Source of the DNA: a virus
IMG/VR virus record: IMGVR_UViG_3300013123_000014
Span: 1-42,787 of that record
Reading direction: 5' to 3' (one strand)
DNA: 42,787 nucleotides
How positions within the stretch are numbered: position 1 is the first letter of the stretch; each line of letters starts with the position of its first letter. The notes under the pieces were generated by a model. That model did no database searches and had not been told where the DNA came from. It worked only from the letters and a program-made list of their open reading frames with translations. Shown piece after piece: positions 124-12,821 of the stretch. The translations under genes were made by a program, and so were the position numbers.

Positions 124-355
124 GGGAGTAAATTTCTTTTATAAAAGCTAACGGCATTTGCTCCCGGATTCTTTTTACCCACGACCGACGAATACTCTGG
201 GGACAAATCACTACTCCTGACGAAAGTCCGAGCTGTTTCCAAGCCTCGATTACTTGATAGGTTTTTCCAAGTCCCATATCATCAGCGAGGATAGCGTTAG
301 GCCGCAACGCCAGAAAATTCCGGCCAGTTTCCTGAAAAGGAAGAAGCTTTATCAT
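1..355 (-). CDS. SNF2-family DNA helicase, N-terminal part (continues at 42664 on the circle)
   Basis: This is the 5' part of the helicase whose remainder is at 41601-42787. ATG is at 355-353 and overlaps the stop of the upstream glycosyltransferase gene as ATGA. Reading leftward the protein begins MIKLLPFQETG, then shows the Walker A motif DDMGLGKT near residues 25-32 and the start of motif II DESH near residue 115. Position 1 equals 42665, and the codon phase is kept across the join (the internal Met at 42722 corresponds to position 58, 99 codons from this start). The complete protein is about 472 aa. Superfamily 2 helicases of this type in phages are thought to remodel protein-DNA complexes or help replication and recombination. 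Confidence 0.93.
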   Translation of the reverse strand, partial: MIKLLPFQETGRNFLALRPNAILADDMGLGKTYQVIEAWKQLGLSSGVVICPQSIRRSWVKRIREQMPLAFIKEIYSPKIVPEISAFNIVNYDIVWKEPLITLLKDQDWPVLVCDESH

Positions 356-1086
356 TTGTTCGATTCTTTCGCAATTGCGTTAAGAAGTTTCTTAACGTCG
401 TTTTCGTAGTGCTCGAGCATATATTCTTTCACCGCTGCATCGCCATAACTTTGTTGAGCGTCACTATACACCCACTTATAATTGTCGTCGATAGTTCGTT
501 TCCCATTAATCCAGTGACGATGCTCGATAATTATTTCTCTTGTTGGGAAAAGCCGGTTAATCCCTTTACAGAGCTTCATCAGCATCACATCAATTCCAAT
601 ATGCTGAATTTTTGGATAAATCATATATCCTAATTCCCGCACCATCTTCCCAGAAACAATACAGCCTGACGGGTGTAAATACTGGGACCAGTCGCTTAGA
701 AGGTCGTCGGCCATCGCAATACCCCACCCTTGTCCCTTTTGCTCGAGTATGCCAATGAGTTTTTGGTCCCAAAATCGAGTGTGGAAATAATGGTCGTCGT
801 TAACTGGAGCAAAATATTGCGCTTGAGAAGACCAAGCATAATGGTTATACGTCTCCGCAATAAATCGTCTCGGCCCGACATCAAACTGAAACGCCCTAAA
901 TCCCTGACGTTTAAAGTCTTTGGCTACAATTTCGTATTCCGAGAGTTTCGGATCGTCGTTATTCAAATAAACTACCAAAAAGTTTCCCGGTGACGCGGTT
1001 TCCTGAAAAGATCGGGCCATATTCTTTAATACCTCTGGTCTTCCTCGAGAAGGGCAAATTGTAAGAACGCTTACTTCACTATTCAT
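352..1086 (-). CDS. GT-A-fold glycosyltransferase-like protein
   Basis: This 244-aa protein opens with the strand-loop ICPSRGRP, typical of nucleotide-sugar-binding GT-A enzymes. It has a DXD-like acidic cluster, NDDH, near residues 96-99, where metal and sugar nucleotide would bind. It resembles putative glycosyltransferases that phages often carry. The target could be a host surface glycan, a virion protein or modified DNA; the sequence does not show which. It has no signal peptide or membrane segment, so it should be cytosolic. ATG at 1086 overlaps the preceding gene's stop as ATGA, and its own stop overlaps the helicase start, so it is translationally coupled on both sides. It is the last gene of the metabolic cassette. 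Family-level confidence is fair; specificity is unknown. Confidence 0.72.
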   Translation of the reverse strand: MNSEVSVLTICPSRGRPEVLKNMARSFQETASPGNFLVVYLNNDDPKLSEYEIVAKDFKRQGFRAFQFDVGPRRFIAETYNHYAWSSQAQYFAPVNDDHYFHTRFWDQKLIGILEQKGQGWGIAMADDLLSDWSQYLHPSGCIVSGKMVRELGYMIYPKIQHIGIDVMLMKLCKGINRLFPTREIIIEHRHWINGKRTIDDNYKWVYSDAQQSYGDAAVKEYMLEHYENDVKKLLNAIAKESNK

Positions 1087-1862
1087 TTTATCCTTTCTAC
1101 ACCTTTGAGCGTGAGTAAATCTTTTTGGCCGTCTTCTCCGAACTCTTCCACGAGTTCTTTATACCCGGGTTCAGTAGGATCAATACGTTTCTTATATAAT
1201 GCTTGACGGATCTCTGCATTGTACAAGTATATCCGATTCCACGGAGTGACATTCCGGTGATTCAGCTGTACATCCATATGGACGAATGGTTGGATCCCGG
1301 CGGCTAAACATTTATCACAAAAAATAGCATCCGGAGGCCCTGGGAGTTTGGGGTCAAAAAACGGGTAGAGAATTTTTTGAAACAACGAAGACTTCCAAAG
1401 AGTATACGGAGTAGCTGTAAGGTCCGTTGTTTGGACTCCTTCTCCCGTAGTTTCGTCAAGAAAATCACCTTTCATTTTTCCAATTTCCTGAAGAGATAGT
1501 TTCACTCCAGGTTTCTTTCGGCAAGCAAATTTAGCGTAAGGAAACCCGGCTGTATAAGTAACAGCGGAAATAAACTCTTTATCTGCCTCAAGTAAGCGCA
1601 ATATATCGCCTTTTTCAACACCCCAAATATCATCGTCCATCCGAAGAATATGGGTAAACCCATTCATCAACGCGCGTTGAATAATTTCATTGTCCGCATC
1701 TTGCACTCGGCGCCGATAGGGGAAAAAATACGACGTCTTTGCCCCAGCCCTGTGAAGATCATTGACCGTTGTCAATAAAGAATTCATAAACCTACGCGGG
1801 TCAGGGTCGATCCCAAACGTAGGGCATCCTATGAGAACTTTTATTTCTTCCTTATTATTCAC
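1083..1862 (-). CDS. Second GT-A-like glycosyltransferase (GTG start)
   Basis: I prefer a GTG start at 1862: a GGAGG lies a few bases upstream and the start overlaps the stop of the upstream gene. An in-frame ATG at 1982 would overlap that gene by 128 bp. From the GTG the protein is 259 aa, beginning VNNKEEIKVLIGCPTFG, a GT-A N-terminal strand. The acidic triad MDDDIWG near residue 80 looks like a DXD metal site. No membrane segment is seen. It differs clearly from the neighbouring glycosyltransferase-like protein, so the two may act in sequence or on different acceptors. ATGA overlap with the next gene suggests coupled translation. Confidence 0.68.
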   Translation of the reverse strand: MNNKEEIKVLIGCPTFGIDPDPRRFMNSLLTTVNDLHRAGAKTSYFFPYRRRVQDADNEIIQRALMNGFTHILRMDDDIWGVEKGDILRLLEADKEFISAVTYTAGFPYAKFACRKKPGVKLSLQEIGKMKGDFLDETTGEGVQTTDLTATPYTLWKSSLFQKILYPFFDPKLPGPPDAIFCDKCLAAGIQPFVHMDVQLNHRNVTPWNRIYLYNAEIRQALYKKRIDPTEPGYKELVEEFGEDGQKDLLTLKGVERIK

Positions 1863-2298
1863 CTGGCCCTCCTTCTTCTCTGGTTTGAGCCACATACACA
1901 ACCCCAATGGCTTTATAAAATTTATCATAAGTATCTTCTGAAAGGTGCTTAACCTTTTCCTCCACCCGGTTTCCCTGATCAAGAATATTCTTATTCTCTA
2001 TCCGGGTTTTATTTGTGTTGCGTATCATAATAGCTCTACGGCCGACTTCAGACAGAGGAATAGACCCCTCTGCGGCGTTCCGGACGCTATGCTCTAAATC
2101 CCAAATAGATAAATTTGTTTGAGCGAGACGGATAATGGCCAAAATGAATTCTCCGTCTATCCCCGCATTTTTGCAATCCTCGAGCATTAAATCCAATTCT
2201 TGTTGTGCCCCGGGTAACTTGCAAAGCGCTTTTTTAGACACAACACACATCTTATCAATAAATTCTCCAAAACTCATTACAAAAAGATTTCTCCCCAT
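1855..2298 (-). CDS. Conserved-looking protein with a DUF4254-like helical motif
   Basis: This 147-aa protein is probably mostly helical. Residues about 56-105 carry the pattern LAQTNLSIWDLEHSVR, then EVGRRA and IRNTNKTRIE. This N-x-x-x-W-x-L-E-x-x-x-R plus N-x-x-R arrangement is like that of DUF4254-type proteins encoded in lipopolysaccharide and glycan clusters. That likeness is from memory and unverified. The start at 2298 has an AAGGCGGG stretch upstream; Met8 is an alternative. It lies between the radical-SAM genes and the glycosyltransferases in the same operon, which fits an accessory role in the same pathway. No catalytic motif is visible. Confidence 0.55.
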   Translation of the reverse strand: MGRNLFVMSFGEFIDKMCVVSKKALCKLPGAQQELDLMLEDCKNAGIDGEFILAIIRLAQTNLSIWDLEHSVRNAAEGSIPLSEVGRRAIMIRNTNKTRIENKNILDQGNRVEEKVKHLSEDTYDKFYKAIGVVYVAQTREEGGPGE

Positions 2299-2321
2299 CA
2301 GTTACCCGCCTTTCCTATTTT

Positions 2322-3401
2322 TCATATAAAGTTAATATGTTCGGGTTTATGCACAAAATCGTGGATAAATTTATTTGTGCTATCGTGACGGCAGCAGCCC
2401 TCACAATCTTTATGCACGTCAAATTCCTTTTGCAGATACCCGATAATTTTCCAGTAATGTTCAGAATTTAGAATTTCTCCCAAAGACTGTTTTGCCAAAT
2501 CGCCATAGCAATACCTTTCGTTACCAAATAAATACCCGCAAGGGTAACACTTCCCATCGCCAGAAATTTGGAAAAGTAAAGGCACGTCAAGACAATGATC
2601 ATAAGGTCTTCGGACACGTTGAGCAATCATCCGAAATTTAGGGACTATCCGAGTTTCAAAGGTACTCATCGCCGCAGCCTGTCTAAGTGTTTCTTTGATT
2701 TTTGGCTCGTCAAACCACGGGCTTTCCGGGACCTCCATAGCATTGTATTTAGGATCCGAGCATTGCTTAATTACAAAATAATCTACCCCGGTATCGATAG
2801 CGAATTGAGCTTCCCGCAAAACGTATGGGAGTGCGTTCTTTGTTAGCACCATCTGAAGTCCGATAGTCACGGGAGAACCAAGCTGCTTTTTCATTTGGAC
2901 GGCTAACTGGATGTTTCGTTTCACTCCTTCCCAATACGGCCGGCCGTGAACGACTTCGTACCCTTCTTCGATAGCCGAAAGATTAAAACGCAGCCAGACA
3001 AGGTTATTAACAAAATCAGCCATATCTAAATCGGAAATCCGAACGCCATTAGTGGCCATCGCCATATCGAGTCCACTGTCAACACCTGCACGGATAGCCG
3101 GGATCAAACTTGGATGTAGAGTAGGCTCACCGTCCCCGACAATAGAGATAGCTTTTACTCCGCATTTTGGGGCCTCTTTAAAAAGCTGGATAAGTGCAGC
3201 ATCAGGAATCATTTCTCCAGTCATCTTTTGAAAGATACCATAGCAATACTCGCATTTAATATTACACAACTTAGTAATTCCAGCATCGATCATAATTGGC
3301 GCGATTCGTTTCCCTTGAACGAAGTGTTTATACACACGATCCATATGCCAGAGCAACTTGTTGCTATCTAAATTCCATTTGTCAATATCCTTCACGTTCA
3401 T
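2322..3401 (-). CDS. Radical SAM protein with C-terminal SPASM-like Cys cluster
   Basis: The protein is 359 aa from the ATG at 3401, which has an AGAGGAGGT ribosome site 7 nt upstream and overlaps the previous stop as ATGA. A Met 10 codons earlier lacks such a site. The radical SAM signature CX3CX2C is at residues 46, 50 and 53 (CNIKCEYC), followed by GDGEPTLHP, the glycine-rich SAM-contact motif, and ATNG in the barrel. The C-terminal third has several Cys (CLDVPLL, GKCYPC, CEGCC), as expected for a SPASM or twitch domain holding extra iron-sulfur clusters. SPASM enzymes modify peptides, sugars or other substrates by radical chemistry. It sits next to a second, different radical SAM gene. 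The substrate is unknown. Confidence 0.87.
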   Translation of the reverse strand: MNVKDIDKWNLDSNKLLWHMDRVYKHFVQGKRIAPIMIDAGITKLCNIKCEYCYGIFQKMTGEMIPDAALIQLFKEAPKCGVKAISIVGDGEPTLHPSLIPAIRAGVDSGLDMAMATNGVRISDLDMADFVNNLVWLRFNLSAIEEGYEVVHGRPYWEGVKRNIQLAVQMKKQLGSPVTIGLQMVLTKNALPYVLREAQFAIDTGVDYFVIKQCSDPKYNAMEVPESPWFDEPKIKETLRQAAAMSTFETRIVPKFRMIAQRVRRPYDHCLDVPLLFQISGDGKCYPCGYLFGNERYCYGDLAKQSLGEILNSEHYWKIIGYLQKEFDVHKDCEGCCRHDSTNKFIHDFVHKPEHINFI

Positions 3402-4258
3402 TTTGTTACCTCCTCTATTTTTACGCTGCAATGACCACCTTGTTGAAGACGATTGGTTTTTAATTTCACGTCACACGGATTACAAAGGCCAAAATCGTGG
3501 CACATACAAACCCGGTAGCTTCGGCTATCTGTATTCTTAGCGGCTGCAAATGGCCGGCTATTGGAATAAAGAAAATGGTGGCAAGGGAATACTTCGCCAT
3601 TAGGAGCAAAAAGAAGTTCGCTCGGATAACACCAAACTGCTTTTCTCTGCCTCTGGCCAGATACTGCTTTGGGGTATTTATAAGTCCCGTGTGTAGCGTC
3701 GAGAAATTCTTTCATTCGAAAATCTATTCCTACACTGTCGCAAGCATTTTGCATCATAGAGTTTTTTAACTTCATATCTGGATGATCCAGGCCCCAGATA
3801 CCAACACTGTACCCCTCTTTCTTCAATGCTTGTACAGTTTTGAGTAGCGTAATCCCGTTAGTTTTTTGATGAAACGAAAATCTAATCGACGCATACGGGG
3901 CACGACGTTTAAACATTTTTGGCTCTGTGCGGTAGATAAACTCTTTAACGTCGAAACAGCCATTGGTCAGAAGATCGATCTTCTTTCCGCGAAGATGAAG
4001 TTCTTTTACCAGATCGTAGAAGTCCGGGTATTCAGTTGGTTCGCCACCCTGAAGACTGATAGGTAAATCGTTCCGGGTAGGAATAGCAGAAAGAATTTTT
4101 ACCCATTCACTGACAGATATTTCTTTACGCGGCGCGAAATCCCCGTGCCGATTAATACAATAACTACACCCCATCCGGCAACGAAAAGTAAGAAACACCC
4201 CAATGTAATTATATTTATCCGGCAATTTCATCTTTTCACCCTTCGATAATTGTATCAT
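3398..4258 (-). CDS. Radical SAM protein, second of an adjacent pair
   Basis: This protein is 286 aa from the ATG at 4258, which has AGGAGG 4 nt upstream. An alternative ATG at 4231 with AAGGG would remove 9 residues. The CX3CX2C motif is CRMGCSYC at residues 27, 31 and 34, followed by LQGGEPTEYPDF (SAM-binding GGE motif) and LLTNG. The C-terminal part has more Cys-rich segments (WCYPSE, FPCHHF, VCMCHDFGLCNPC), suggesting an auxiliary iron-sulfur cluster. The gene overlaps the upstream thiamine-diphosphate enzyme gene by 23 bp and the next radical SAM gene by 4 bp. Two different radical SAM enzymes side by side suggests successive radical steps on one intermediate or substrate; this is inference. 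Confidence 0.85.
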   Translation of the reverse strand: MIQLSKGEKMKLPDKYNYIGVFLTFRCRMGCSYCINRHGDFAPRKEISVSEWVKILSAIPTRNDLPISLQGGEPTEYPDFYDLVKELHLRGKKIDLLTNGCFDVKEFIYRTEPKMFKRRAPYASIRFSFHQKTNGITLLKTVQALKKEGYSVGIWGLDHPDMKLKNSMMQNACDSVGIDFRMKEFLDATHGTYKYPKAVSGQRQRKAVWCYPSELLFAPNGEVFPCHHFLYSNSRPFAAAKNTDSRSYRVCMCHDFGLCNPCDVKLKTNRLQQGGHCSVKIEEVTK

Positions 4259-4778
4259 ATAACCTCCTGTATTCGACAAACATTATTGGTCGCTCAATTA
4301 CTCTATGTATAAACGCGCCCATCACATCGCGACAATTAGTAAGCCTTACAACTGGAATAGACGTATGCTTCTCAAAAACGTCCGAGTAGTCCTGAACGTG
4401 CTGTGTCCCCGGGTCAAGCGGGCTATCGTGGCCGACGCATACTCGGATAATCATAGGAATTTTTAAGCCGTATTTTTGTAAATTCGAAAGATGATTAACT
4501 AAGGCGTCCATCCCGGCGAGTAAGAAATCCGCACGTTCAAAACAAAGTACCGGAAGATAACCTTCTAATGAAAGTCCCGTGGCTATCCCGACCATTAAGT
4601 TTTCGGCAACTGGTGTCTCAATACATAAATGTTCGCATCCGATAAGCGTTCCGTTCATTTTATGCCCGTAGGCGGTATTATAACCGACAAAACGAATTTG
4701 AGGATTAAGCGATAACGCGCACATTGTTTTATGAAGCAGATCTTTGTAAGTATCTCTATTCTCGATTTTTTCTACCAT
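4236..4778 (-). CDS. Thiamine-diphosphate enzyme, E1 beta / transketolase pyrimidine-binding half
   Basis: The 180-aa protein matches the pyrimidine (PYR) domain of E1-beta and transketolase-type enzymes. ETPVAEN at residues 54-60 corresponds to the E1-beta segment that supplies the glutamate activating the thiamine aminopyrimidine. It is followed by GIATGLSLEGYLPV and the LAGMDALVNHLSNL helix, equivalent to the E1-beta FSMQAIDQ region. Usual E1-beta chains are about 325 aa, and this one lacks the C-terminal transketolase domain. It overlaps the end of the alpha-like gene by 7 bp, as expected for subunits made together. The assembled enzyme should cleave or transfer a two-carbon or acyl-aldehyde unit from a 2-oxo acid or ketose. 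The exact reaction is not deducible. Confidence 0.82.
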   Translation of the reverse strand: MVEKIENRDTYKDLLHKTMCALSLNPQIRFVGYNTAYGHKMNGTLIGCEHLCIETPVAENLMVGIATGLSLEGYLPVLCFERADFLLAGMDALVNHLSNLQKYGLKIPMIIRVCVGHDSPLDPGTQHVQDYSDVFEKHTSIPVVRLTNCRDVMGAFIHRVIERPIMFVEYRRLYDTIIEG

Positions 4779-5383
4779 TTAATTTGCACTCCTGTTCCTA
4801 CGTGCGGAAAAGCTGCTTGATAATGATAATAGAAAACCTTTGGGGTACCCCAAAGTTCTTGCATTTCACGGTCTTTTTCCCCCCAACGCTGTTCGATAGA
4901 TGTCGTTACTGATCGATTATTATTTTCGATAACGAAAGTGATAGGTAGATCGTGGCCTATTGCGTATCTTAGCGCCTCCCAAAACCAACCTTGATCACAA
5001 GCCCCATCACCGACAAAACAATGCACTTTATTACTCTGCCCCGCGAGTTTAATCGCTTTTGCGACTCCTACCGCAAGACCGACGTTTCCCCCTACAATAG
5101 CTGTACTGATGAAATGCCGGGAAAGATCGATAATGTGCATTGAATTATTATGCTTCAATATCTCATTCCTCAAAAATTCTTTGTCTCCTGTGGCCAAGAG
5201 CCAATGGTAAGTATTCCTGTGAGTAGAAAAAACCCAATCCCCAGGTTGGAAATGTTTTTGAAAATAACTAATTAAGATATCTTCATTCCCTCCGCAGAAA
5301 TGGTGGGGGCAACGGATTTGTCCGCTCTCCCAAAGGATACGCATATCGTCTTCAAAGTCTATTAACTCTTGTTTAGTTATCAT
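4772..5383 (-). CDS. Thiamine-diphosphate enzyme, E1 alpha / transketolase diphosphate-binding half
   Basis: The 203-aa protein carries the thiamine-diphosphate and magnesium motif GDG-X26-NN (GDGACDQG at residues 125-132, ENNN at 153-156). It also has E1-alpha-like features: STHRNTYH near 53-60, SMH at 81-83 and STAIVGGNVGLAVG at 93-106, parallel to the GSMH and GIVGG motifs of pyruvate or acetoin dehydrogenase E1-alpha. It is shorter than the usual 320-360 aa, so it is a compact form. With the beta-like partner downstream it would form a heteromeric enzyme with its active site at the subunit interface. No E2 or E3 gene accompanies it, arguing against a full dehydrogenase complex and for a stand-alone lyase or transketolase-type reaction. 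The pair is very unusual in a phage. Confidence 0.87.
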   Translation of the reverse strand: MITKQELIDFEDDMRILWESGQIRCPHHFCGGNEDILISYFQKHFQPGDWVFSTHRNTYHWLLATGDKEFLRNEILKHNNSMHIIDLSRHFISTAIVGGNVGLAVGVAKAIKLAGQSNKVHCFVGDGACDQGWFWEALRYAIGHDLPITFVIENNNRSVTTSIEQRWGEKDREMQELWGTPKVFYYHYQAAFPHVGTGVQIKW

Positions 5384-6012
5384 AAGTCCTCAATAGTTAC
5401 CGTTTGCTTTTGATATTCGATTGGTGTTAGCCACCCTAAAACTGGCGCACCAGAAAAACCCTTCTCCCATATAAACCAAGCATAACACGAAGCAGAAGAG
5501 CCGGTGTCTGAGAAACGCCCGTTCATCGCGCATTTCTTTCGAAAAGAATATACCCAGATTTTTTTCGGCGGATTCTTGACAAACAACTTTTGGCGGCCTT
5601 GTCCTTCTAAAAAAGTTAACTTTAAAAACATCGCAACTTTATTAGATGTAAGTTTTAACGCTTGCTCGACAAATTCTGCCGCAAATTTATACGGGGGGTT
5701 CGTAATAATATCTCCAGTAAAGCCTTCTGTCGCTGTTAAGAAGTCTATTCCGGGTTTTCCAAAACCCCTATCAATTAAATCAGACGAAAAAACTGTCTTC
5801 CCCAAAGACGTCATACGTATAGATAAGTGCCCTTCCCCGCAAGCAGGTTCCCAAATTTTTGGCGCAAATTTTTCAACATTAAATAAGTCGTCAATGGCCG
5901 ACGGTTCTGTAGCGTAATAGTCGTGAACTTCACGATCGTGATCCGAATGGTTACTAGCACCAAGAGTCGTAAAAATAGATTTCTTATTTCCTGTCCAGTC
6001 TTTACTTATCAT
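5380..6012 (-). CDS. Adenine-type DNA methyltransferase (NPPY)
   Basis: The 210-aa protein has SAM-binding motif I as EPACGEG (residues 55-61), an acidic SSDLID strand, and catalytic motif IV as NPPY (105-108), the pattern of N6-adenine methyltransferases. No target-recognition domain or endonuclease partner is evident, so it is probably an orphan enzyme that protects phage DNA or marks it. Small phage homologues of this layout are common. ATG at 6012 overlaps the primase-helicase stop (ATGA) with GGGAGAG upstream. Its own stop overlaps the E1-alpha-like start, so it could instead belong functionally to the cassette that follows. Confidence 0.82.
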   Translation of the reverse strand: MISKDWTGNKKSIFTTLGASNHSDHDREVHDYYATEPSAIDDLFNVEKFAPKIWEPACGEGHLSIRMTSLGKTVFSSDLIDRGFGKPGIDFLTATEGFTGDIITNPPYKFAAEFVEQALKLTSNKVAMFLKLTFLEGQGRQKLFVKNPPKKIWVYSFRKKCAMNGRFSDTGSSASCYAWFIWEKGFSGAPVLGWLTPIEYQKQTVTIEDL

Positions 6013-8087
6013 AACTCTCCCACTATTTGATTCATTTGCTCTCTCATCGGCCGGGTATAGGAGGTACTGAATACCCCACCCTCTCGAGAGATTTTTTTAT
6101 CCCAACGTAACCCCACTAACGCTGCGGCTACACGGCTTTGATCAGCCCGGGTAACTGACTTCATAGGTACGCCTACATATTCAAGTATTTCTTCTGTTGT
6201 AACTTCATTCACTTCCGGATTCTCCTTAACCCAACGCACAACATTTTGTCTCATAGGGTCTTCCGGCATCCGGGCCTGAGCTTCAAGAACTTGAAGTTGT
6301 TCCGCCTCGCCTACGAGATAGAGCATTTCGTTTTTATAACATTGAAAAGCTTCCGCCCAAAGCTGGTCACAATTATTTTCAAGGCCTTTAAGGTCCACCG
6401 GGCCATTAAATCGTGTAATCCAGTATCTTCTATTTCCGGTAATATCGTTGAGATACCCCACGTGTTCCGGGTTAACCGTTCCTATGAAAATACTTTGACG
6501 AGGAAAGTCTTTTGCGTGGCGTTCGTAAGACAAGCGGACGGTATCTTTTTCCCGGGTGATAAAAGATTTAAGGCTGTTTGCGTCGTGCCAGCGAAGCGCG
6601 GTCATTTCGGAGAGCTCTATTACCCATTTACTTAACATCATATGAATCGCGTCTTTAGCGTGAGGATCTAAATTCATATCCCCGCCCCAATTTCTGCCGA
6701 GGATACGGCAAGCTGTACTTTTCCCGATTCCCTGATCTCCTTCGATAATAAGTACGTGATCCCACTTACACCCAGGCTCCATAACACGTTTCACCGCCGC
6801 GCAAAGAGTCTTTCGCGCAATAGCCCGGGTGTACGAGGTATCTATCGCGTGGCCAAAAACGGTTAGCCAATTGTTAAGCCTCGGAATTTGGTCCCAGACA
6901 AGAGATTGAAGATAATTTCTAATAGGATGATAATGCCTTTTATGCGCCACAACTATAACTGCCTCTAAAACTGTTTGCTGGGAAAATTCTATGCTAATCG
7001 TTTTCGCCAAGAAAAACTTCAATAACACAACATCTTCGTCGCAAAGATTGGGCCCCTTAGCCCCGCGTTCTTTATACCACGGTGCGCTTGAATTTATTTC
7101 TATCATCCCGGAAAAAGTGTTATACCGGAAGGCATCTTGAATTTTTGGCAGTGTTACTAAGTAGTTCACAGCGTTGTTGAGGGATGGTTTTATCGCGCCT
7201 TTTGCGGTTAGATCGTATTTAACGTCCCCAAAATTTATTTTTTCGCCTACTTCAGCCACTTTAAAAATCGCGCCAACATTCAAGTGGCCGGCTTTTTCTT
7301 TAGCATAAGTATAAGCAGAGCGGACCGTGTGTTCAATATCTGGGTCAGAAAGGGCTGGGGAGATCTTTTGGGGAAGGTACGACTCTTTCAATGTTTGAAG
7401 ACAAGTGCATTCAGACAGCCCAAAATCCCGGCCGCGGCAAGCAGCTACATAAAGAGAATTTCTACGGGCCCCTGTTGTAGCCTCTGGCATCCCGGAAAGA
7501 GATTCTTTAAATCGTTCGATATTTAACGCGTCATCATCTACAAACCCCGGTTCTGGGGCCGGGCCGATAGTTACCCTTTCTTGCTTGACGATCCGGGCTA
7601 CAAGAGCCCCTGGCGCGTCCAGAAGGGCATTTAAAGAGCCGAAGACTACTTCATACCGCTTCTTTGTATCTGGATGGATGCTTTCTGCCCCCACCACATA
7701 AAAAGGCCCGTGACGAAATTCTAAACCTGGGTATTCTTTAAGGTAAAGTGAAGTCTCCACACCTAGAGGGAAGTTAAGGTATATATGAAAACCACCGGAA
7801 CCTGTCTTGACCACAAAAGTTTTACTCTCCCACCCTTTTTCGAGTTTTAGATCCCCACAGAGCTGGGCAAAACTTTCTTTCCCTTTGGCCCCGTCTTTGA
7901 TATCAATATCAATTACAAGCCGGTTCTCCGTATGCACCCCAAAATTCTTGGGGATATCACTCCGGGAAAGGGTCGGGTCTTTTGGAATTAATTTCCAGTC
8001 TTCTCCCTCTTTAACCGCCGGCTTTTTACCGCGCAAAGGAAAAACTCGAAAACCTTGCTGAACGTATTGCTGAATTATATCAAGCAT
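6009..8087 (-). CDS. Primase-polymerase fused to VirE-type helicase
   Basis: This 692-aa protein has two modules. Residues about 1-180 form a bifunctional primase-polymerase domain: GFRVFPLRGKKP at the N-terminus, the metal-binding VIDIDIKDG near 57-65, KTGSGGFHIY near 93-102 and a YVVGAES strand. The C-terminal half is a VirE-like superfamily 3-type ATPase: Walker A GDQGIGKST near 450-458, Walker B-like KWVIELSEM, and the conserved GTVNP and TGNRRYW segments. Such fusions start and unwind DNA for phage replication. It is the first large gene of the leftward operon and its stop overlaps the methyltransferase start. No separate replicative helicase of the DnaB type is seen, so this is the likely replication initiator. 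Confidence 0.92.
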   Translation of the reverse strand: MLDIIQQYVQQGFRVFPLRGKKPAVKEGEDWKLIPKDPTLSRSDIPKNFGVHTENRLVIDIDIKDGAKGKESFAQLCGDLKLEKGWESKTFVVKTGSGGFHIYLNFPLGVETSLYLKEYPGLEFRHGPFYVVGAESIHPDTKKRYEVVFGSLNALLDAPGALVARIVKQERVTIGPAPEPGFVDDDALNIERFKESLSGMPEATTGARRNSLYVAACRGRDFGLSECTCLQTLKESYLPQKISPALSDPDIEHTVRSAYTYAKEKAGHLNVGAIFKVAEVGEKINFGDVKYDLTAKGAIKPSLNNAVNYLVTLPKIQDAFRYNTFSGMIEINSSAPWYKERGAKGPNLCDEDVVLLKFFLAKTISIEFSQQTVLEAVIVVAHKRHYHPIRNYLQSLVWDQIPRLNNWLTVFGHAIDTSYTRAIARKTLCAAVKRVMEPGCKWDHVLIIEGDQGIGKSTACRILGRNWGGDMNLDPHAKDAIHMMLSKWVIELSEMTALRWHDANSLKSFITREKDTVRLSYERHAKDFPRQSIFIGTVNPEHVGYLNDITGNRRYWITRFNGPVDLKGLENNCDQLWAEAFQCYKNEMLYLVGEAEQLQVLEAQARMPEDPMRQNVVRWVKENPEVNEVTTEEILEYVGVPMKSVTRADQSRVAAALVGLRWDKKISREGGVFSTSYTRPMREQMNQIVGEL

Positions 8088-8103
8088 AGTAGATATACTC
8101 GTC

Positions 8104-8331
8104 CTATAAGCCTTTTATATCCGAAGAATCTTCCGGAAGCTGTATCTGTTTTTGTATTTCAGACCCGGGTATAAAATATCTTGAGCCGCTTTTACCCGCG
8201 CGTATTTGATTACGCTTTATTCTCGTCAAAACCCCATTGTGCGTCATACCTAATAACCTCGCAGCCTCGCCCACGGAAAACACCGCTGTCGGATCGAGAG
8301 TTTTAATCGCTTCAATGTCAATGGTCTTCAT
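8104..8331 (-). CDS. Small MerR/excisionase-type helix-turn-helix protein
   Basis: The protein is 75 aa from the ATG at 8331, chosen because AGGAGG lies 8 nt upstream; an in-frame GTG three codons earlier overlaps the ribosome site. The segment AVFSVGEAARLLGMTHNGV then RYFIPGSEI is the helix-turn-helix plus wing of the excisionase-like HTH_17 type. It would bind DNA, perhaps regulating the operon or helping replication start. No integrase is present, so a classical excisionase role is unlikely. It precedes the primase-helicase gene by 16 bp. Confidence 0.75.
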   Translation of the reverse strand: MKTIDIEAIKTLDPTAVFSVGEAARLLGMTHNGVLTRIKRNQIRAGKSGSRYFIPGSEIQKQIQLPEDSSDIKGL

Positions 8332-8488
8332 TTGTATCACCTCCTTTATTTTCTGTCAAGGAAAATTTCTTAACCCCAACTTTTAGAACCCGTGCGATTT
8401 CTTCCTTTTCACATTCCCGGCATTTTCCGGTGATCCCGGAAACCGGAATCCTATGGATTTTACAAAACTTAACAGGCTTAACCCCCAT
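8318..8488 (-). CDS. Small putative zinc-finger protein
   Basis: This 56-aa ORF begins MGVKPVKFCKIHRI. Cys9, His12, Cys23 and Cys26 form a CX2H-X10-CX2C pattern that could hold one zinc ion. Its ATG at 8488 shares one base with the stop of the upstream gene (TGATG), and AGAGGTAG lies just upstream. Its 3' end overlaps the start of the HTH gene by 14 bp. Function unknown; probably an early accessory protein. Confidence 0.6.
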   Translation of the reverse strand: MGVKPVKFCKIHRIPVSGITGKCRECEKEEIARVLKVGVKKFSLTENKGGDTNEDH

Positions 8489-8724
8489 CAATCTACCTCT
8501 ACTGGATTATACCTGTGTTTAGAGCCTATCGTTTTCCTAAAAATCTTATGCCCCCCGCCAGCCGCGCGCCGGTAAAATTCTTCCACACTCTTAGCGTCTT
8601 CTGAAAGAAGGACCGCTGGCTGCATAAGCTCTAACCGGGCGATAAATCCTCTTTCCCAATCTGTACCCCGATACCCCGATTTATGCGCTTCGATAATCAA
8701 CGCTTCTGCTTCAGGCCACGTCAT
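8488..8724 (-). CDS. Hypothetical small early protein
   Basis: This 78-aa protein begins MTWPEAEALIIEAHKSGYRGTD. It looks soluble and helical at the N-terminus with a basic C-terminal part, KTIGSKHRYNPVEVD. It has no recognised motif. The ribosome site GAGGAGCTGAA is 3 to 4 nt from the ATG. It overlaps the upstream gene's stop as ATGA and leads directly into the small zinc-finger ORF, so it is part of a coupled series. Confidence 0.6.
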   Translation of the reverse strand: MTWPEAEALIIEAHKSGYRGTDWERGFIARLELMQPAVLLSEDAKSVEEFYRRAAGGGHKIFRKTIGSKHRYNPVEVD

Positions 8725-8924
8725 TTCAGCTCCTCTGTTTTATATACAACCTTATAATCCTTATGGGTATATTGACACCAATTAAATTTATTACCATAAA
8801 TAGAAGAAGGTCTTGATGGACAAGGAAGATTTACTCTTGCTGAAATAAACTCTATCTCTGAAATACGATAACCACAACCAGGACATTCATAATAATCAAT
8901 AATTTTTAGGTTTTTCTTGCTCAT
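8721..8924 (-). CDS. Small zinc-ribbon-like protein
   Basis: The 67-aa protein has CPGCGY near residues 14-19 and further Cys at about 34 and 49, suggesting a partial zinc ribbon. ATG at 8924 has CAGGAGCTGAA upstream. Composition is AT-rich and rich in Lys, Ile and Tyr, unlike the flanking replication genes. It shares that trait with the genes up to about 11340. Function unknown. Confidence 0.55.
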   Translation of the reverse strand: MSKKNLKIIDYYECPGCGYRISEIEFISARVNLPCPSRPSSIYGNKFNWCQYTHKDYKVVYKTEELK

Positions 8925-8936
8925 TTCAGCTCCTGG

Positions 8937-9212
8937 TTAGGATTTAGATTTTTCTCTTACTTCTTTTTCGGAGACTGGTTTTCCATTATTACCCCAACCG
9001 AAAACAGTTACGAATGGAATCAGGCTCACACAATGTTTCCACAAACCCTGTCCCCAATCCCCAATAGCTTTACATTTAGTTACGTCTTCTCCATAAGTTA
9101 CTATTGAGACTGTTCCGTTTCTTTCCACGCATAACATCATTATCGCTTGTAAATTATGCTGTTTAGATAATTTCTCTAAGTCTTTAATCTTTATTGAACA
9201 TAATTCTTCCAT
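8937..9212 (-). CDS. Hypothetical protein
   Basis: The 91-aa protein begins MEELCSIKIKDLEKLS. It has an alternating beta-like middle (GTVSIVTYGEDVTKC) resembling small phage proteins of unknown role. The ribosome site GGGGAGGAGAGAA precedes the ATG at 9212. No catalytic motif or membrane segment is evident. It lies in the low-GC block between the pentapeptide-repeat gene and the zinc-ribbon gene. Confidence 0.55.
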   Translation of the reverse strand: MEELCSIKIKDLEKLSKQHNLQAIMMLCVERNGTVSIVTYGEDVTKCKAIGDWGQGLWKHCVSLIPFVTVFGWGNNGKPVSEKEVREKSKS

Positions 9213-9228
9213 TTCTCTCCTCCCCTAT

Positions 9229-9810
9229 TTATTCCACCAATCTATATTTAGCGTTATTAACAATTATCTCTTTCGGGTTTTTATTTTCTTGTGTTGAGAT
9301 AATCTCAACCTTTCCTTCAAGGCAAATCGGTTCACTATAAATTTTCCGTTTTGCTTTTATGCTTTTGCATTTTATAAAATTATACACACAACAGAAAGCA
9401 TAATACAGTATGTTCCCAGCGTTGATATTCCAAGCGTTGATGTCCCCAGCGTTGATATTCCCAGCGTTGATATTCCCAGCGTTGATATTCCCAGCGTTGA
9501 TGTCCCCAGCGTTGATATTCCCAGCGTTGATGTCCCCAGCGTTGATGTCCCCAGCGTTGATGACCCAAGCGTTGATGTCCCCAGCGTTGATGTCCCTGGC
9601 GGTGATGTCCCCAGCGTTGATGACCCAAGCGTTGATGTCCCCAGCGTTGATGTCCCTGGCGGTGATGTCCCCAGCGGTGATATTCCCACAAGTTACTTTA
9701 ATTGAAGCTGATATACTTATTGAACACTCAAACCTTACATCACCCTCAATCGCCAATACTCCGTTTACAATATCTTTTTCTACTTCTTGTTGCGTTTTAT
9801 AAATCTTCAT
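9229..9810 (-). CDS. Pentapeptide-type tandem-repeat protein (INAGD/INAGN repeats)
   Basis: The 193-aa protein has three parts. Residues 1-42 are a cap (MKIYKTQQEVEKDIVNGVLA onward). Residues about 43-137 are near-perfect five-residue repeats such as DINAG, NINAG, DITAR and VINAW. Residues 138-193 are a non-repetitive tail with KAKRKIYSEPICLEGKV. Five-residue periodicity with a hydrophobic centre predicts a right-handed beta-helix, as in pentapeptide-repeat proteins, some of which mimic DNA. Similar phage proteins with this N-terminal cap are known to me without a defined role. GGGAGGGGAGAG precedes the ATG. Confidence 0.75.
   Translation of the reverse strand: MKIYKTQQEVEKDIVNGVLAIEGDVRFECSISISASIKVTCGNITAGDITARDINAGDINAWVINAGDITARDINAGDINAWVINAGDINAGDINAGNINAGDINAGNINAGNINAGNINAGDINAWNINAGNILYYAFCCVYNFIKCKSIKAKRKIYSEPICLEGKVEIISTQENKNPKEIIVNNAKYRLVE
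9411..9692 (-). repeat. 15-bp tandem repeat array with a 60-bp higher-order duplication
   Basis: About 19 copies of a 15-bp unit of the form CCCAGCGTTGATGTC (plus-strand sense) lie back to back inside the repeat-protein gene. A 60-bp block of four units occurs twice in tandem, starting near 9561 and 9621. Changes in copy number would keep frame, so the protein length could vary between isolates. Confidence 0.95.
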
Positions 9811-9821
9811 CTCTCCCCTCC

Positions 9822-10313
9822 CTATTTATTCACTAACTTTGCGATTTGCTCTTTTCGTTCTACTGTTACAATAGTATCATTCTTGCTACCACCGTGAGCA
9901 ACCAATAAAATTCTCTCCATTATAAAACCCCTATTTTTACCAAGCCCTATAGAGTTCCATCCAAAACAGATTACTTTACCGTCGGTTTTAATTATTCTTG
10001 CAACCTCATTCTTACAATCAGCCCAGTATTTCATTGAACTGAACTTTTTGCTTCCGTAATTTCTTGCTTGTGTTATTGAATATGGTGGGTCATACAAAAC
10101 CCCATCTGCGGAGTTATCTTTAATGTTTTTAAGCCATTCTAAGGCATCAATCCCCCCATAAGCAATATCGTTTTGATATTTCGCTATACTATTCTTTCCG
10201 GAAAAAGGGTCATACCACTCTCCGTGTATATCTTCTTCTTTTAATAATGCTTTTATTGGTTTAATAGTAAATGTCCATAGGCTTGGCATAGCCCAAACTC
10301 TGCTTATGTTCAT
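9822..10313 (-). CDS. DNA methyltransferase-like protein (DPPY)
   Basis: The protein is 163 aa from the ATG at 10313, which has AAAGGAG 7 nt upstream; an ATG 14 codons earlier lacks this. Motifs visible are WYDPFSGKNS near residues 33-42 (like the DPFxG motif I of amino-methyltransferases) and DPPYSITQ near 74-81 (catalytic motif IV, N4-cytosine or N6-adenine type). The C-terminal part (ICFGWNSIG, RILLVAHGGSKNDTI) matches the beta strands that follow in this fold. It is short, with no obvious target-recognition domain. It differs from the NPPY methyltransferase at 5380-6012, so the phage carries two. Confidence 0.68.
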   Translation of the reverse strand: MNISRVWAMPSLWTFTIKPIKALLKEEDIHGEWYDPFSGKNSIAKYQNDIAYGGIDALEWLKNIKDNSADGVLYDPPYSITQARNYGSKKFSSMKYWADCKNEVARIIKTDGKVICFGWNSIGLGKNRGFIMERILLVAHGGSKNDTIVTVERKEQIAKLVNK

Positions 10314-10331
10314 CGGCTCACTCCTTTGCTC
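10309..10331. repeat. 23-bp direct repeat, copy 1 (ribosome-site region)
   Basis: The same 23 bases recur at 10542-10564. Both copies contain, on the minus strand, AAAGGAGTGAGCCGATGAA, a ribosome site plus start codon. This copy starts the DPPY methyltransferase. Confidence 0.95.
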
Positions 10332-10335
10332 CTTT

Positions 10336-10440
10336 TTATTCCCTTTCAATCTCAAAAGATATATTATTTTTCTTACACCAATAGATTAAATATACAATTT
10401 GAAATACTTTGCTATCCGAAATTATAATATTCTGAACCAT
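10336..10440 (-). CDS. Small hypothetical ORF
   Basis: A 34-aa ORF beginning MVQNIIISDSKVFQIVYLIY, with AAGGAG 6 nt upstream of the ATG at 10440. It is Ile-rich with a hydrophobic middle and basic C-terminal part. It lies between the 106-aa early gene and the methyltransferase. The ribosome site supports translation, but there is no recognised family and it could be non-functional. Confidence 0.35.
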   Translation of the reverse strand: MVQNIIISDSKVFQIVYLIYWCKKNNISFEIERE

Positions 10441-10511
10441 ATAGTATCTCCTTCTGTCCACCAATTCCGTAAATCTTTACTTGCCTTATAATTTTCACTT
10501 AAACTCATCAT
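10422..10511 (-). CDS. Small hypothetical ORF
   Basis: A 29-aa ORF with a tandem ATGATG start after AGAGGGGGAG, beginning MMSLSENYKASKDLRNWW. It overlaps the next small ORF by 19 bp. A 12-codon ORF starts in the second 23-bp repeat copy (10546) and ends at 10508, making a chain of coupled mini-ORFs. They may be real microproteins or debris of a duplicated gene start. Confidence 0.25.
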   Translation of the reverse strand: MMSLSENYKASKDLRNWWTEGDTIWFRIL

Positions 10512-10541
10512 CTCCCCCTCTTTCTCCCATAGGCGGTGTCT

Positions 10542-10564
10542 TTCATCGGCTCACTCCTTTGCTC
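10542..10564. repeat. 23-bp direct repeat, copy 2
   Basis: Identical to 10309-10331. Here the ribosome site and ATG open only a 12-codon ORF at the end of the 106-aa gene, suggesting the region downstream was rearranged or a gene was lost. Confidence 0.95.
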
Positions 10565-10863
10565 TTTCTCTCTTGGGCTTCGTGGATGGCTTGGCTCATT
10601 TCTTTTAATTGGCTTTCTGGTATTATCGCAAAAGTCTTATCAAAAACCTCTAAATTAGTATCCCAGTTCCAACCTCTATGGTCGTTACAGCCAAGATATT
10701 CTTTGATTATTTCTTTTATCTCCTCCACACCCAACCTCTCGCTTTCTTCTATCTGGACTAATTCTTGTAGGGCTATCTCAATTCTATTGGGATGTATATC
10801 CCTATGTTCTCCCTCAAAACTTCCTTCCTCGTATAATCTCTCCAACACCTCTCGCTTGGTCAT
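10543..10863 (-). CDS. Hypothetical early protein
   Basis: This 106-aa protein begins MTKREVLERLYEEGSFEGEH. It is highly charged and helical, rich in Glu and Lys, with no cysteine cluster or membrane segment. The ATG at 10863 overlaps the previous stop as ATGA. Its last codons and stop lie in a 23-bp repeat. It belongs to the low-GC block of small early genes; no function can be assigned. Confidence 0.6.
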   Translation of the reverse strand: MTKREVLERLYEEGSFEGEHRDIHPNRIEIALQELVQIEESERLGVEEIKEIIKEYLGCNDHRGWNWDTNLEVFDKTFAIIPESQLKEMSQAIHEAQERKSKGVSR

Positions 10864-11156
10864 TTCTCACCTCCGAATAGGTTGGCTATGTCCTGAAGTG
10901 TATCATTAACTCCCTCGCAGTATTTATAATATCCGCTTGGATCGCCCTCTACTTCTTTAGGTGGCATTTCTTTAATCTTCTTCGCCGTCACCAACTCACG
11001 CAGGGCGGAGAGGGCTTGGTCAAATATTATATTAGCTTCTTCTGTTGCAACACTTCTATGCATCCCATTAACTAATCTATTCAATATCTCCCTTACCGCC
11101 TTCTCCTTCTCCAGCAATCTCTCTTTTTCCCATTCTTCAAATGTCATCTTATTCAT
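10860..11156 (-). CDS. Hypothetical early protein, helical
   Basis: The 98-aa protein begins MNKMTFEEWEKERLLEKEKAV, a long charged helix with coiled-coil character. Residues 45-75 (FDQALSALRELVTAKKIKEM) continue as helix. Met4 is an alternative start. It overlaps both neighbours by a few bases (11149-11156 upstream, ATGA downstream). Family not recognised. Confidence 0.6.
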   Translation of the reverse strand: MNKMTFEEWEKERLLEKEKAVREILNRLVNGMHRSVATEEANIIFDQALSALRELVTAKKIKEMPPKEVEGDPSGYYKYCEGVNDTLQDIANLFGGEK

Positions 11157-11340
11157 CGCTGGGTTCTCCTTTTCTTATTTCCCAATATCTTTTAGGTGGC
11201 TTAACAAATATAATCCTCCAAATAACCTCTACCTTTCCCCAAAAACTTAAATCACATAAACAAGCCCACATATAGCGAAAAGCTATGTCATCTTCTCCGC
11301 CCTTAAAAGCAAATACCCCTAAATCTCTGTTTTCTTCCAT
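11149..11340 (-). CDS. Hypothetical small protein with an amphipathic middle
   Basis: The 63-aa protein begins MEENRDLGVFAFKGGEDD. Residues 22-50 are aromatic and hydrophobic (YMWACLCDLSFWGKVEVIWR), then basic. The ATG at 11340 has AAGGAG 6 to 7 nt upstream and is about 115 bases from the promoter at 11457-11484. It may be a membrane-associated early protein. No family recognised. Confidence 0.55.
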   Translation of the reverse strand: MEENRDLGVFAFKGGEDDIAFRYMWACLCDLSFWGKVEVIWRIIFVKPPKRYWEIRKGEPSDE

Positions 11341-11476
11341 TTCTAACTCCTTTTTTCAGGCTTTGTTCGTCGTACCACGACGCGATAAGAGATCTCGTTT
11401 TTCTTTCAGCGTAAGCCGGTGTAATAAGTATCGACGAAAGAACACCAACAAATATAAGTATAGTAAATATTCTCAT
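11303..11476 (-). CDS. Small secreted-protein ORF, possibly a truncated RlpA-like remnant
   Basis: A 57-aa ORF starting at 11476. Residues 1-23 look like a complete signal peptide (MRIFTILIFVGVL, ending in AYA). The next segment, SLIASWYDEQSLKKG, resembles the start of RlpA-type double-psi-barrel cell-wall proteins (ASWY, SLKK). The rest is too short and runs into the start of the 63-aa gene. There is no ribosome site, and the ATG lies between the -35 and -10 of a promoter, so it would need an upstream transcript. It may be a decayed gene or chance. Confidence 0.3.
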   Translation of the reverse strand: MRIFTILIFVGVLSSILITPAYAERKTRSLIASWYDEQSLKKGVRNGRKQRFRGICF

Positions 11477-11484
11477 TTTGTCAA
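11457..11484 (-). promoter_or_regulatory. Sigma-70-type promoter, leftward
   Basis: On the minus strand TTGACA (11484-11479) and TATACT (11462-11457) are separated by 16 bp. It would start transcription near 11450, upstream of the 63-aa gene. It shares CTTGACAA with the other promoters of this genome. Confidence 0.65.
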
Positions 11485-11495
11485 GAAATATTTTT

Positions 11496-11669
11496 CTACG
11501 CCCGGACTATCTGATCCGGTGTAAGGTTTCTGACCCAAGCCTCCCGATAACCGCAGCCTTTATTAATGCAATATTCCACTACCCGGATTTCACCGGGCGC
11601 TTGCTGTGCGGTGTAACTCTTCCGGACGACAGAGTTTTCTTTGCACTTCGGGCAATAACGCAGGGGCAT
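11496..11669 (-). CDS. Small zinc-ribbon protein
   Basis: This 57-aa ORF begins MPLRYCPKCKENSVVRKSY. CPKC at residues 6-9 and CINKGC at 34-39 form a two-knuckle zinc ribbon separated by 24 residues, a layout common in small phage proteins that bind nucleic acid or partner proteins. The start codon at 11669 overlaps the stop of a six-codon ORF that has GGAGG upstream, so translation may be coupled. It ends 12 bases before the promoter at 11457-11484. Confidence 0.65.
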   Translation of the reverse strand: MPLRYCPKCKENSVVRKSYTAQQAPGEIRVVEYCINKGCGYREAWVRNLTPDQIVRA

Positions 11670-11675
11670 CAAAGT

Positions 11676-11765
11676 TTATATGATCCCATTCTCTTTGAAT
11701 TCCTCCAACAACCCTTGAGCGCGCGTGCGCCCTATTTTTAAACTGCCTTGCATTAAACTAACCAT
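11676..11765 (-). CDS. Micro-ORF resembling the recognition helices of FtsK gamma
   Basis: A 29-aa ORF with GGGGGCGG just upstream of its ATG at 11765. Residues 2-29 (VSLMQGSLKIGRTRAQG, then LLEEFKENGII) closely follow the helix-turn-helix pattern of the FtsK/SpoIIIE gamma winged-helix domain, which reads polarity sequences in DNA. The usual domain is about 60 aa, so the first helix and the wing are missing. An in-frame stop lies just upstream. It may be a fragment or a minimal DNA-binding peptide. The likeness is from memory. Confidence 0.4.
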   Translation of the reverse strand: MVSLMQGSLKIGRTRAQGLLEEFKENGII

Positions 11766-11777
11766 TCCGCCCCCTTT

Positions 11778-12098
11778 TTAATAGGCGCGAATATCGTCAA
11801 TAATAAACTCTCCAGCGGTCTCTTTAATGCACGCAGCGTCCACTTCCGCCCAGTTCTTAAAATAAAAGAATATCTCTTTGTCATCACCCCGTACGCCCAT
11901 ATCATTAACCCCGCATACGTAATTAAATATCGGATCGCCGTTGTCTTTATATGAGCCGGATATCCGTATTTTTTGGCGTGTCTCAAGGCGCGCGTTAAAA
12001 TCTCCGCAGTTTTCTACATTATAACGCTTGCCGGTGCTATCCTTACAATCTTCGCAGCAGTAGTTAAAGATACAATTTTCGCAAATATATTGCCCCAT
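11778..12098 (-). CDS. Cys-rich small protein
   Basis: The protein is 106 aa from the ATG at 12098, chosen because AAGGAGG lies 7 nt upstream; a Met 26 codons earlier would use the structured leader as coding sequence. Six Cys cluster in the first 32 residues (ICENCIFNYCCEDC, then ENC), suggesting bound metal. The remainder has beta-like segments (KIRISGSYKD, KEIFFYFKNW). A leader of about 130 bases with four inverted repeats precedes it. Function unknown. Confidence 0.6.
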   Translation of the reverse strand: MGQYICENCIFNYCCEDCKDSTGKRYNVENCGDFNARLETRQKIRISGSYKDNGDPIFNYVCGVNDMGVRGDDKEIFFYFKNWAEVDAACIKETAGEFIIDDIRAY

Positions 12099-12117
12099 AG
12101 TGTCGCCTCCTTGTTTT

Positions 12118-12212
12118 GCCGGTGTAAAGGTACCGGCATAAATTTGTTGCGGGCTCTCCCGCTTATCCTTTACCACTTGCTCCTCTCAAGTGGTTTCGGC
12201 TCTCTTAGAGCC
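12118..12212 (-). promoter_or_regulatory. Structured leader with four consecutive inverted repeats
   Basis: Between the 129-aa and 106-aa early genes four perfect short hairpins follow each other: 12198-12212 (6-bp stem, 3-nt loop), 12172-12194 (8-bp stem, 7-nt loop), 12149-12162 (5-bp stem, 4-nt loop) and 12118-12137 (6-bp stem, 8-nt loop). On the minus-strand RNA the loop of the 8-bp hairpin reads AGAGGAG, a ribosome-site-like sequence. No long U tract follows, so these are not classical terminators. They may be RNA-stability or regulatory elements. Confidence 0.55.
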
Positions 12213-12229
12213 TCGTCAGAGGGTTTATT

Positions 12230-12619
12230 TTATAGCCAGCTTTGTTTTAGGCAATACCCGCCGTCAGTCTCCGGCTTTGTGTCTCCGTTGCGTCCGGTAA
12301 TGTATTTGCCGTTGCCGTGAGGGTATAAGGCGCTTGCCAGATTATAAACAATGCTGAAGCCCATATCCATTCCGCAGCCGGACACACCCACCGAGCCGTC
12401 GCAGTCTCTATAACCACAAATACAGGCAACGTACCAAGAGATATTGATTATCTCCCGCTCTTTGGAATACCTGTTTTTTGCGATAATCAAAACCGCAATC
12501 CGCCTGTACATACCGGAGGCGGAAACGTGCCTTAATGTAGTATAAACACGGCTGCCAGCCGGTAACCATTTTTTGACTTGCTTAATTGCTTCAGCTTTTT
12601 CCTGTTCTGATACTTTCAT
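12230..12619 (-). CDS. Conserved phage protein of unknown function (RHVSxSGM motif)
   Basis: The 129-aa protein begins MKVSEQEKAEAIKQVKKWL. It has VYTTLRHVSASGMYRRIAV near residues 25-43, a CICGYRDCDG segment, VSGCGMDMGF near 79-88 and a GGYCLKQSWL end. This combination is one I know from small hypothetical proteins of many phages, without an assigned activity. AAAGGA precedes the ATG. It is the second gene of the leftward operon. Confidence 0.7.
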   Translation of the reverse strand: MKVSEQEKAEAIKQVKKWLPAGSRVYTTLRHVSASGMYRRIAVLIIAKNRYSKEREIINISWYVACICGYRDCDGSVGVSGCGMDMGFSIVYNLASALYPHGNGKYITGRNGDTKPETDGGYCLKQSWL

Positions 12620-12656
12620 TTTTTACGTCCTTTCTGCCCGTAAGGGCTGTTATTGA

Positions 12657-12821
12657 TTACGCTGCCCGGCGGTCTAATTCCGCGCGTACCTCAGCTAGTG
12701 ATGGAAAATAGCGAGCGCTAAAACCTATGATCCGGGTGATCTCTTTTAAGCTATCACGCAAGCGAAATAATTCTGGCAAGGATAGCTTAGCTAATTGCTG
12801 ATCCATTTCTTGGTTGTTCAT
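12657..12821 (-). CDS. First small gene of the leftward operon
   Basis: A 54-aa ORF beginning MNNQEMDQQLAKLSLPELF. It is fully helical in character, with a charged C-terminal half ending AELDRRAA. AAGGAG lies 9 nt upstream of the ATG at 12821, and the strong promoter 12876-12904 is about 55 bases further up, so it should be highly expressed early. No family recognised; small first-transcribed phage proteins often act on host functions, but nothing here shows that. Confidence 0.65.
   Translation of the reverse strand: MNNQEMDQQLAKLSLPELFRLRDSLKEITRIIGFSARYFPSLAEVRAELDRRAA

Follow-up and report, generated by a model that had tools for sequence, protein, structure and literature searches.

A viral gene cassette joining a minimal two-subunit thiamine-diphosphate enzyme to two radical SAM proteins, and its possible role in making a branched surface sugar

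Introduction

Phage genes for surface glycans are already known, and their chemistry has usually been guessed from single genes. LPS gene clusters have been described in cyanophages S-SM2, P-SSM2 and S-SSM7 (PMC3037559), and the hypervariable region of pelagimyophages carries glycosyltransferases and radical SAM (rSAM) cassettes, for which a change of the O-chain has been proposed (PMC7029224). Among thiamine-diphosphate (ThDP) enzymes, the acetolactate synthase (ALS)-type YerE and the E1-like pairs AviB1/B2, Pau11/12 and EvdU5/S3 have been shown or proposed to install two-carbon branches on ketosugars (PMC4753412, PMC10338323). BtrN, a twitch rSAM enzyme, acts as a radical dehydrogenase, converting a sugar-like alcohol into a ketone (PMC9012708).

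Here we describe a cassette from a viral genome (IMG/VR record IMGVR_UViG_3300013123_000014; the whole stretch of 42,787 nucleotides is referred to as the window) that resembles each of these systems in part. As in the yersiniose (YerE) and eurekanate/paulomycose (AviB1/B2, EvdU5/S3, Pau11/12) systems, an E1-like-pair or ALS-type ThDP enzyme occurs within a glycan gene set. Unlike in the yersiniose and eurekanate systems, the window has shorter ThDP subunits in which the usual C-terminal regions are missing, and a proposed rSAM step replaces the known ketosugar-forming steps; no known ketosugar-forming family is present among the window proteins. In the cyanophages S-SM2 and P-TIM68 a polysaccharide cluster includes a fused homologue of the ThDP enzyme, but the cyanophage LPS clusters and P-TIM68 have a Zn alcohol dehydrogenase (Zn-ADH), a kinase and a nucleotidyltransferase where the window has rSAM1, rSAM2 and a DUF4254-like protein. 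The pelagimyophage region, likened here by its description, shares the combination of phage glycosyltransferase and rSAM genes, with no mention of a transketolase-type gene. BtrN has a four-Cys auxiliary cluster pattern, as does rSAM2; it was not matched in a PDB profile search with the rSAM proteins. The cassette was not described in the literature that we searched on rSAM with transketolase or thiamine genes in phages (mostly outside subscription journals), nor did the literature searched describe an rSAM route to branched sugars.

Results

A seven-gene cassette in a phage replication operon

The window is the complete genome (42.66 kb) of a podovirus-like phage, with a head-tail connector and a T7-type tail-fibre domain. 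Its ends have a 123-bp direct terminal repeat in common, the genome is circularly permuted, and the SNF2 gene spans the join of the two ends. The cassette consists of seven ORFs on the minus strand (352-5383), overlapping or a few bases apart, in the order TPPa, TPPb, rSAM1, rSAM2, DUF4254-like, GT2, GT1. A Prim-Pol/VapE primase-helicase (6009-8087, minus strand; VapE-like E 2e-65, Prim-Pol E 1e-15) and an NPPY-type DNA methyltransferase (5380-6012, minus strand; phrog_799 E 1e-61) lie on one side, and SNF2 lies on the other. A preliminary description of this DNA had listed seven genes here with these flanks; all seven ORFs are present, and profile matches confirm the flanking genes. Its further statement that the cassette is inserted found no direct support, in that the relatives recovered by a search with SNF2 either carry the cassette or are cut, with no empty site among them. 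Outside the cassette, the large terminase gene (14603-16960) contains an intein at a GRQQG/CTT (Walker-A-like) site; the homologue in the related contig L066 has no such intein.

TPPa and TPPb form a minimal E1-related ThDP enzyme

TPPa (4772-5383, minus strand; Pfam E1_dh, E 7e-19) is a PP-domain, E1-alpha-like subunit of 203 aa, and TPPb (4236-4778, minus strand; Transket_pyr, E 4.5e-9) is a Pyr-domain, E1-beta-like subunit of 180 aa. TPPa can be aligned to human PDH E1-alpha and contains the ThDP motif GDG-x27-N, with G125-D126-G127 and N155 invariant; R56, H60 and E153 are also invariant. In TPPb, E59 (within ETPVAE) and H127 are invariant and occupy the alignment positions of the catalytic Glu and the active-site His in E1-beta chains. 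By these alignments, TPPab is kin to E1 and not to transketolase. E1 chains are 324-400 aa long, and no match to a Transketolase_C domain or an E2 partner was found in TPPa, TPPb or the window proteins scanned; because of the short subunits and these missing elements, we class TPPab not as a PDH E1 but as an E1-related minimal enzyme (mini-E1). Both proteins match phrog_34187, a fused phage family, and fused TPPa-TPPb homologues of ~400 aa occur in 26/49 locus groups, tying TPPa and TPPb together as subunits. The predicted model of one fused homologue (pTM 0.91) has a ThDP-enzyme fold and matches DXS, E1-beta and transketolase, with human transketolase giving the best single-chain overlap among the matches listed (TM 0.60).

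Two radical SAM proteins with auxiliary-cluster cysteines

rSAM1 (3398-4279, minus strand, likely ATG start at 4231; Radical_SAM E 1.1e-11) has a Cys-rich C-terminus, with CX3CX2C at C18/C22/C25 and five more invariant C-terminal Cys. rSAM2 (2322-3431, minus strand, likely start at 3401; Radical_SAM E 8e-11, SPASM E 7e-8) has a SPASM/twitch-like domain, with an invariant CX3CX2C motif and four invariant C-terminal Cys (C270, C288, C333 and C337). Both families thus carry the two marks of SPASM/twitch enzymes, CX3CX2C and auxiliary-cluster cysteines. Inteins favour conserved sites, and the rSAM2 gene of L027 has one at its CX3CX2C motif, where the third Cys is restored by the +1 residue. Among the PDB profile matches were peptide-type rSAM enzymes, SkfB and PqqE included, and rSAM2 also matched two sugar enzymes, DesII and cytosylglucuronate decarboxylase. 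Together with the Pfam matches of TPPa and TPPb, these data bear out the earlier assignment of a split ThDP enzyme and two rSAM proteins; the catalytic residues of all four proteins are kept, and the active sites of the cassette enzymes appear intact as far as can be read from their sequences.

Readings of the rSAM proteins as viperin-like or MoaA-like scored far under the cut-offs. A tblastn search of named phages with rSAM1 and the DUF4254-like protein gave no match. Homing-endonuclease-like ORFs separate rSAM1 from rSAM2 in L009 (2340-2975) and L010 (7141-7659) and are absent from this place in the window. A third rSAM/SPASM protein, which the window lacks, is added to the set in one virus (L029, 11225-12319) and in cellular loci L088, L099 and L100. 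The Manatee Spring podovirus (L104, MW202801) has no ThDP gene in its region at 8025-12688, where a relative of rSAM2 accompanies glycosyltransferases, PhyH and a NodB-like protein in the structural module.

Glycosyltransferases and accessory proteins

GT1 (352-1086, minus strand) is a GT-A-like glycosyltransferase that matches the phage 'glycosyltransferase' family phrog_14945 (E 2e-25) and has matches in 69 phage records. GT2 (1083-1982, minus strand, probable GTG start at 1862) has no Pfam match and a weak phrog match (phrog_1574, E 0.003), so its reading as GT-A-like rests on motifs, including DDD; it has no meaningful similarity to GT1 and is kept in L008, L009, L010, L066 and L129. The two GT-A-like glycosyltransferases described earlier are thus upheld. 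The small helical protein (1855-2298, minus strand) had been called DUF4254-like; the window protein itself does not match PF14063, but 3/7 homologues match it weakly (best E 2.4e-4), suggesting a relationship that is weak but real. Its predicted model (four helices, mean pLDDT 69) has no meaningful PDB match, and it is kept next to the TPP/rSAM genes in 16/40 well-flanked rSAM1 groups (defined below). A LicD-family protein (36899-37516, minus strand; PF04991 E 1.2e-16), whose gene overlaps the DNA polymerase gene, is a probable partner of the cassette. LicD proteins transfer phospho-groups to glycans. The gene is retained in the two closest relatives of the window and has homologues in six rSAM1 groups; in L066 and L010 no LicD gene was found.

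The ThDP enzyme and the two rSAM proteins are genetically linked

A plain protein query recovered 3 loci, and an alignment query was needed for a wider set; the profile search, anchored on the TPP genes, gave 215 viral relatives, of which 80 were kept, and at least five loci in cellular genomes. The family is rare, occurring in 1/395 genomes sampled in the phylum of a Desulfobacterales locus and 6/279 sampled in that of a Nanoarchaeota locus. Across 49 independent groups, the ThDP gene neighbours a Zn-ADH in 24, rSAM2 in 20 and rSAM1 alone in 1, and in none a Zn-ADH and an rSAM gene together. The ADH/rSAM label changes at least 4 times on the TPP tree and mostly tracks the fused and split TPP lineages; hence the independent switches are few and the pattern is suggestive only.

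A scan anchored on rSAM1 provided an independent sampling, in which ThDP genes were counted within 8 kb and groups with at least 9 kb of flank were considered well-flanked. We observed a ThDP enzyme near rSAM1 in 43/47 independent groups (mostly viral, 4 cellular); among well-flanked groups, 38/40 have a ThDP enzyme and 38/40 have rSAM2. The ThDP enzyme is a mini-E1 in 28 groups, a split transketolase-like enzyme in 10 and an ALS-like enzyme in 5, and no group has two kinds together. Loci without a mini-E1 differ from those with one in carrying the alternative ThDP genes (Fisher p 5e-9, with groups that are not fully independent phylogenetically). In the phage contig L129, which has the gene order of the window, a transketolase-like pair occupies the exact position of TPPab. 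Well-flanked viral exceptions are L140 and L156 (the latter cut just upstream of rSAM1), and in cellular genomes G665 and G530 rSAM1 is present with no ThDP gene detected nearby. No rSAM1 was found at E 1e-50 in the genome sample from the phylum of G003 (a Kaiserbacteria locus). We conclude that the ThDP enzyme and the two rSAM proteins are genetically linked, with one of three ThDP families filling the place, and that the cassette core recurs across many viruses that are not related to one another, as well as in a few archaeal and bacterial genomes. The co-occurrence anticipated for these genes is thus found in viral and cellular loci alike.

For cassette genes with unsaturated dS, dN/dS relative to L009 is about 0.04-0.09, indicating that they are under purifying selection. 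The low dN/dS and the same gene order in independent contigs show that the cassette is not a chance assembly. Relative to the window, TPPa and TPPb of L066 have 46% and 33% identity, lower than the 67-78% of the flanking rSAM2, DUF4254-like and primase genes, which points to gene-by-gene swapping.

Cellular and viral homologues lie in glycan clusters

The glycan context of the cassette is strongly supported. Most cellular copies belong to clusters for ADP-heptose or other glycans: those in archaeal genomes occur in surface-glycan clusters with HldE, heptosyltransferases and sugar epimerases, and the Desulfobacterales copy is chromosomal, on a contig with housekeeping genes, and adjoins a glycosyltransferase. 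In other viruses the cassette lies next to terminase genes and is not tied to replication genes. A sister mini-E1 clade (L033, L067 and archaeal L103), which has neither a Zn-ADH nor an rSAM gene beside the ThDP enzyme, encodes near TPPab a DegT-family protein and a sugar 4,6-dehydratase. In these DegT-family proteins His replaces the PLP Lys, which we take to be the hallmark of RfbH/ColD 3-dehydratases. Judged by these assignments, the clade has the gene layout of the yersiniose pathway, with the 4,6-dehydratase and RfbH-type 3-dehydratase in common and the mini-E1 in the place of YerE.

Discussion

We propose, with a probability of about 50%, that the virus uses the cassette to make an unusual sugar, branched by the ThDP enzyme, and to decorate surface glycan of the host with it. 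An rSAM enzyme would make a ketosugar, a step that elsewhere would fall to a Zn alcohol dehydrogenase or an NDP-sugar 4,6-dehydratase. The ThDP enzyme would then add an acyl-anion unit, for which pyruvate is the probable source, to the ketone. The resulting sugar would carry a two-carbon branch, as yersiniose and eurekanate do, and would be transferred to lipopolysaccharide or capsule by GT1 and GT2, perhaps with the LicD-like protein. The modified glycan may mask receptors against superinfection; both the acceptor and this benefit are proposed on the model of surface modification by other phages (PMC7029224). This reading rests on the ThDP-rSAM linkage, the replacement of TPPab in L129, the mutual exclusion of ADH and rSAM genes, the layout of the RfbH-type clade, the precedent of YerE and the E1-like pairs, the glycan neighbours of the archaeal and Desulfobacterales copies, purifying selection and the L027 intein at CX3CX2C. 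That the product is branched is probable. Carboligation of a ketosugar is our best reading of the ThDP step, at odds that are about even. We infer that the ketone comes from an rSAM enzyme; the four invariant C-terminal Cys of rSAM2 fit a BtrN-type four-Cys auxiliary cluster, supporting a dehydrogenase step. Counting against this step, twitch/SPASM rSAM enzymes also carry out epimerisation, elimination and peptide work. The transketolase-type replacements, moreover, suggest transfer of a ketol rather than an acetyl unit, and the few independent ADH/rSAM switches, the absence of a detected ThDP gene near rSAM1 in G665 and G530 and the failure to find LicD in L066 and L010 also weigh against the pathway. 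No sugar nucleotidyltransferase or ketoreductase is recognisable in the window, so the host would need to supply these.

That the ThDP enzyme is instead a small transketolase, in the same cassette and with the same target, is rather unlikely. It would make a higher ketose chain (e.g. heptulose phosphate for ADP-heptose), which the rSAM enzymes would epimerise or deoxygenate. Consistent with this are the transketolase-like pairs in ten rSAM1 groups, the PfkB/HldE-like kinase and RfaE-like nucleotidyltransferase found with fused homologues, the HldE and heptosyltransferase found with archaeal copies, and the overlap of the fused model with human transketolase. By contrast, the sequences of TPPab are related to E1, the RfbH-type clade indicates a ketosugar acceptor, and five groups have ALS-like enzymes, for which heptulose synthesis is not known.

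The preliminary description left the target between host glycan and the phage's own DNA, and the two did not fare alike. The glycan-type cassette that it placed among phage replication genes is real and its genes are inherited together, and a sugar or acyl-derived group remains the best reading. Host surface glycan is favoured because most cellular homologues sit in clusters for surface glycans and other phages have the enzyme in polysaccharide clusters. Hypermodification of phage DNA against restriction is improbable: the cassette does lie in a replication operon and adjoin a DNA methyltransferase, and a GT1-like region occurs in phrog_2675 (annotated as DNA methyltransferase), but no methyltransferase is present at the corresponding place in L010 and L066, the cassette elsewhere adjoins terminase genes or sits in cellular glycan clusters, and no thymidylate-synthase-like base hydroxymethylase or nucleotide kinase was found among the window proteins scanned (all but a few small ORFs). 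More improbable still is that a modified peptide is the product, with the rSAM/SPASM proteins acting as its maturases. Such enzymes often have this role, and SkfB and PqqE were matched, but rSAM2 also matches the two sugar enzymes, no conserved precursor-peptide-like ORF was seen, and the partners are glycosyltransferases, LicD, nucleotidyltransferases and sugar dehydratases.

Three ThDP families at one position narrow the chemistry to C-C bond making of the ThDP type and give a testable product class. More tentatively, phages, probable archaeal viruses and DPANN archaea may share a largely viral pathway whose ThDP carboligase is interchangeable and would receive its ketosugar from radical SAM dehydrogenation. 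The proposed pathway, if true, would extend the routes to branched sugars by one that uses rSAM chemistry, and it would account for many ThDP and rSAM genes whose role in viruses is obscure.

L068, a virus contig, encodes a thermosome/TCP-1-like chaperonin (8584-10008) a short way upstream of TPPa, which hints at an archaeal host.
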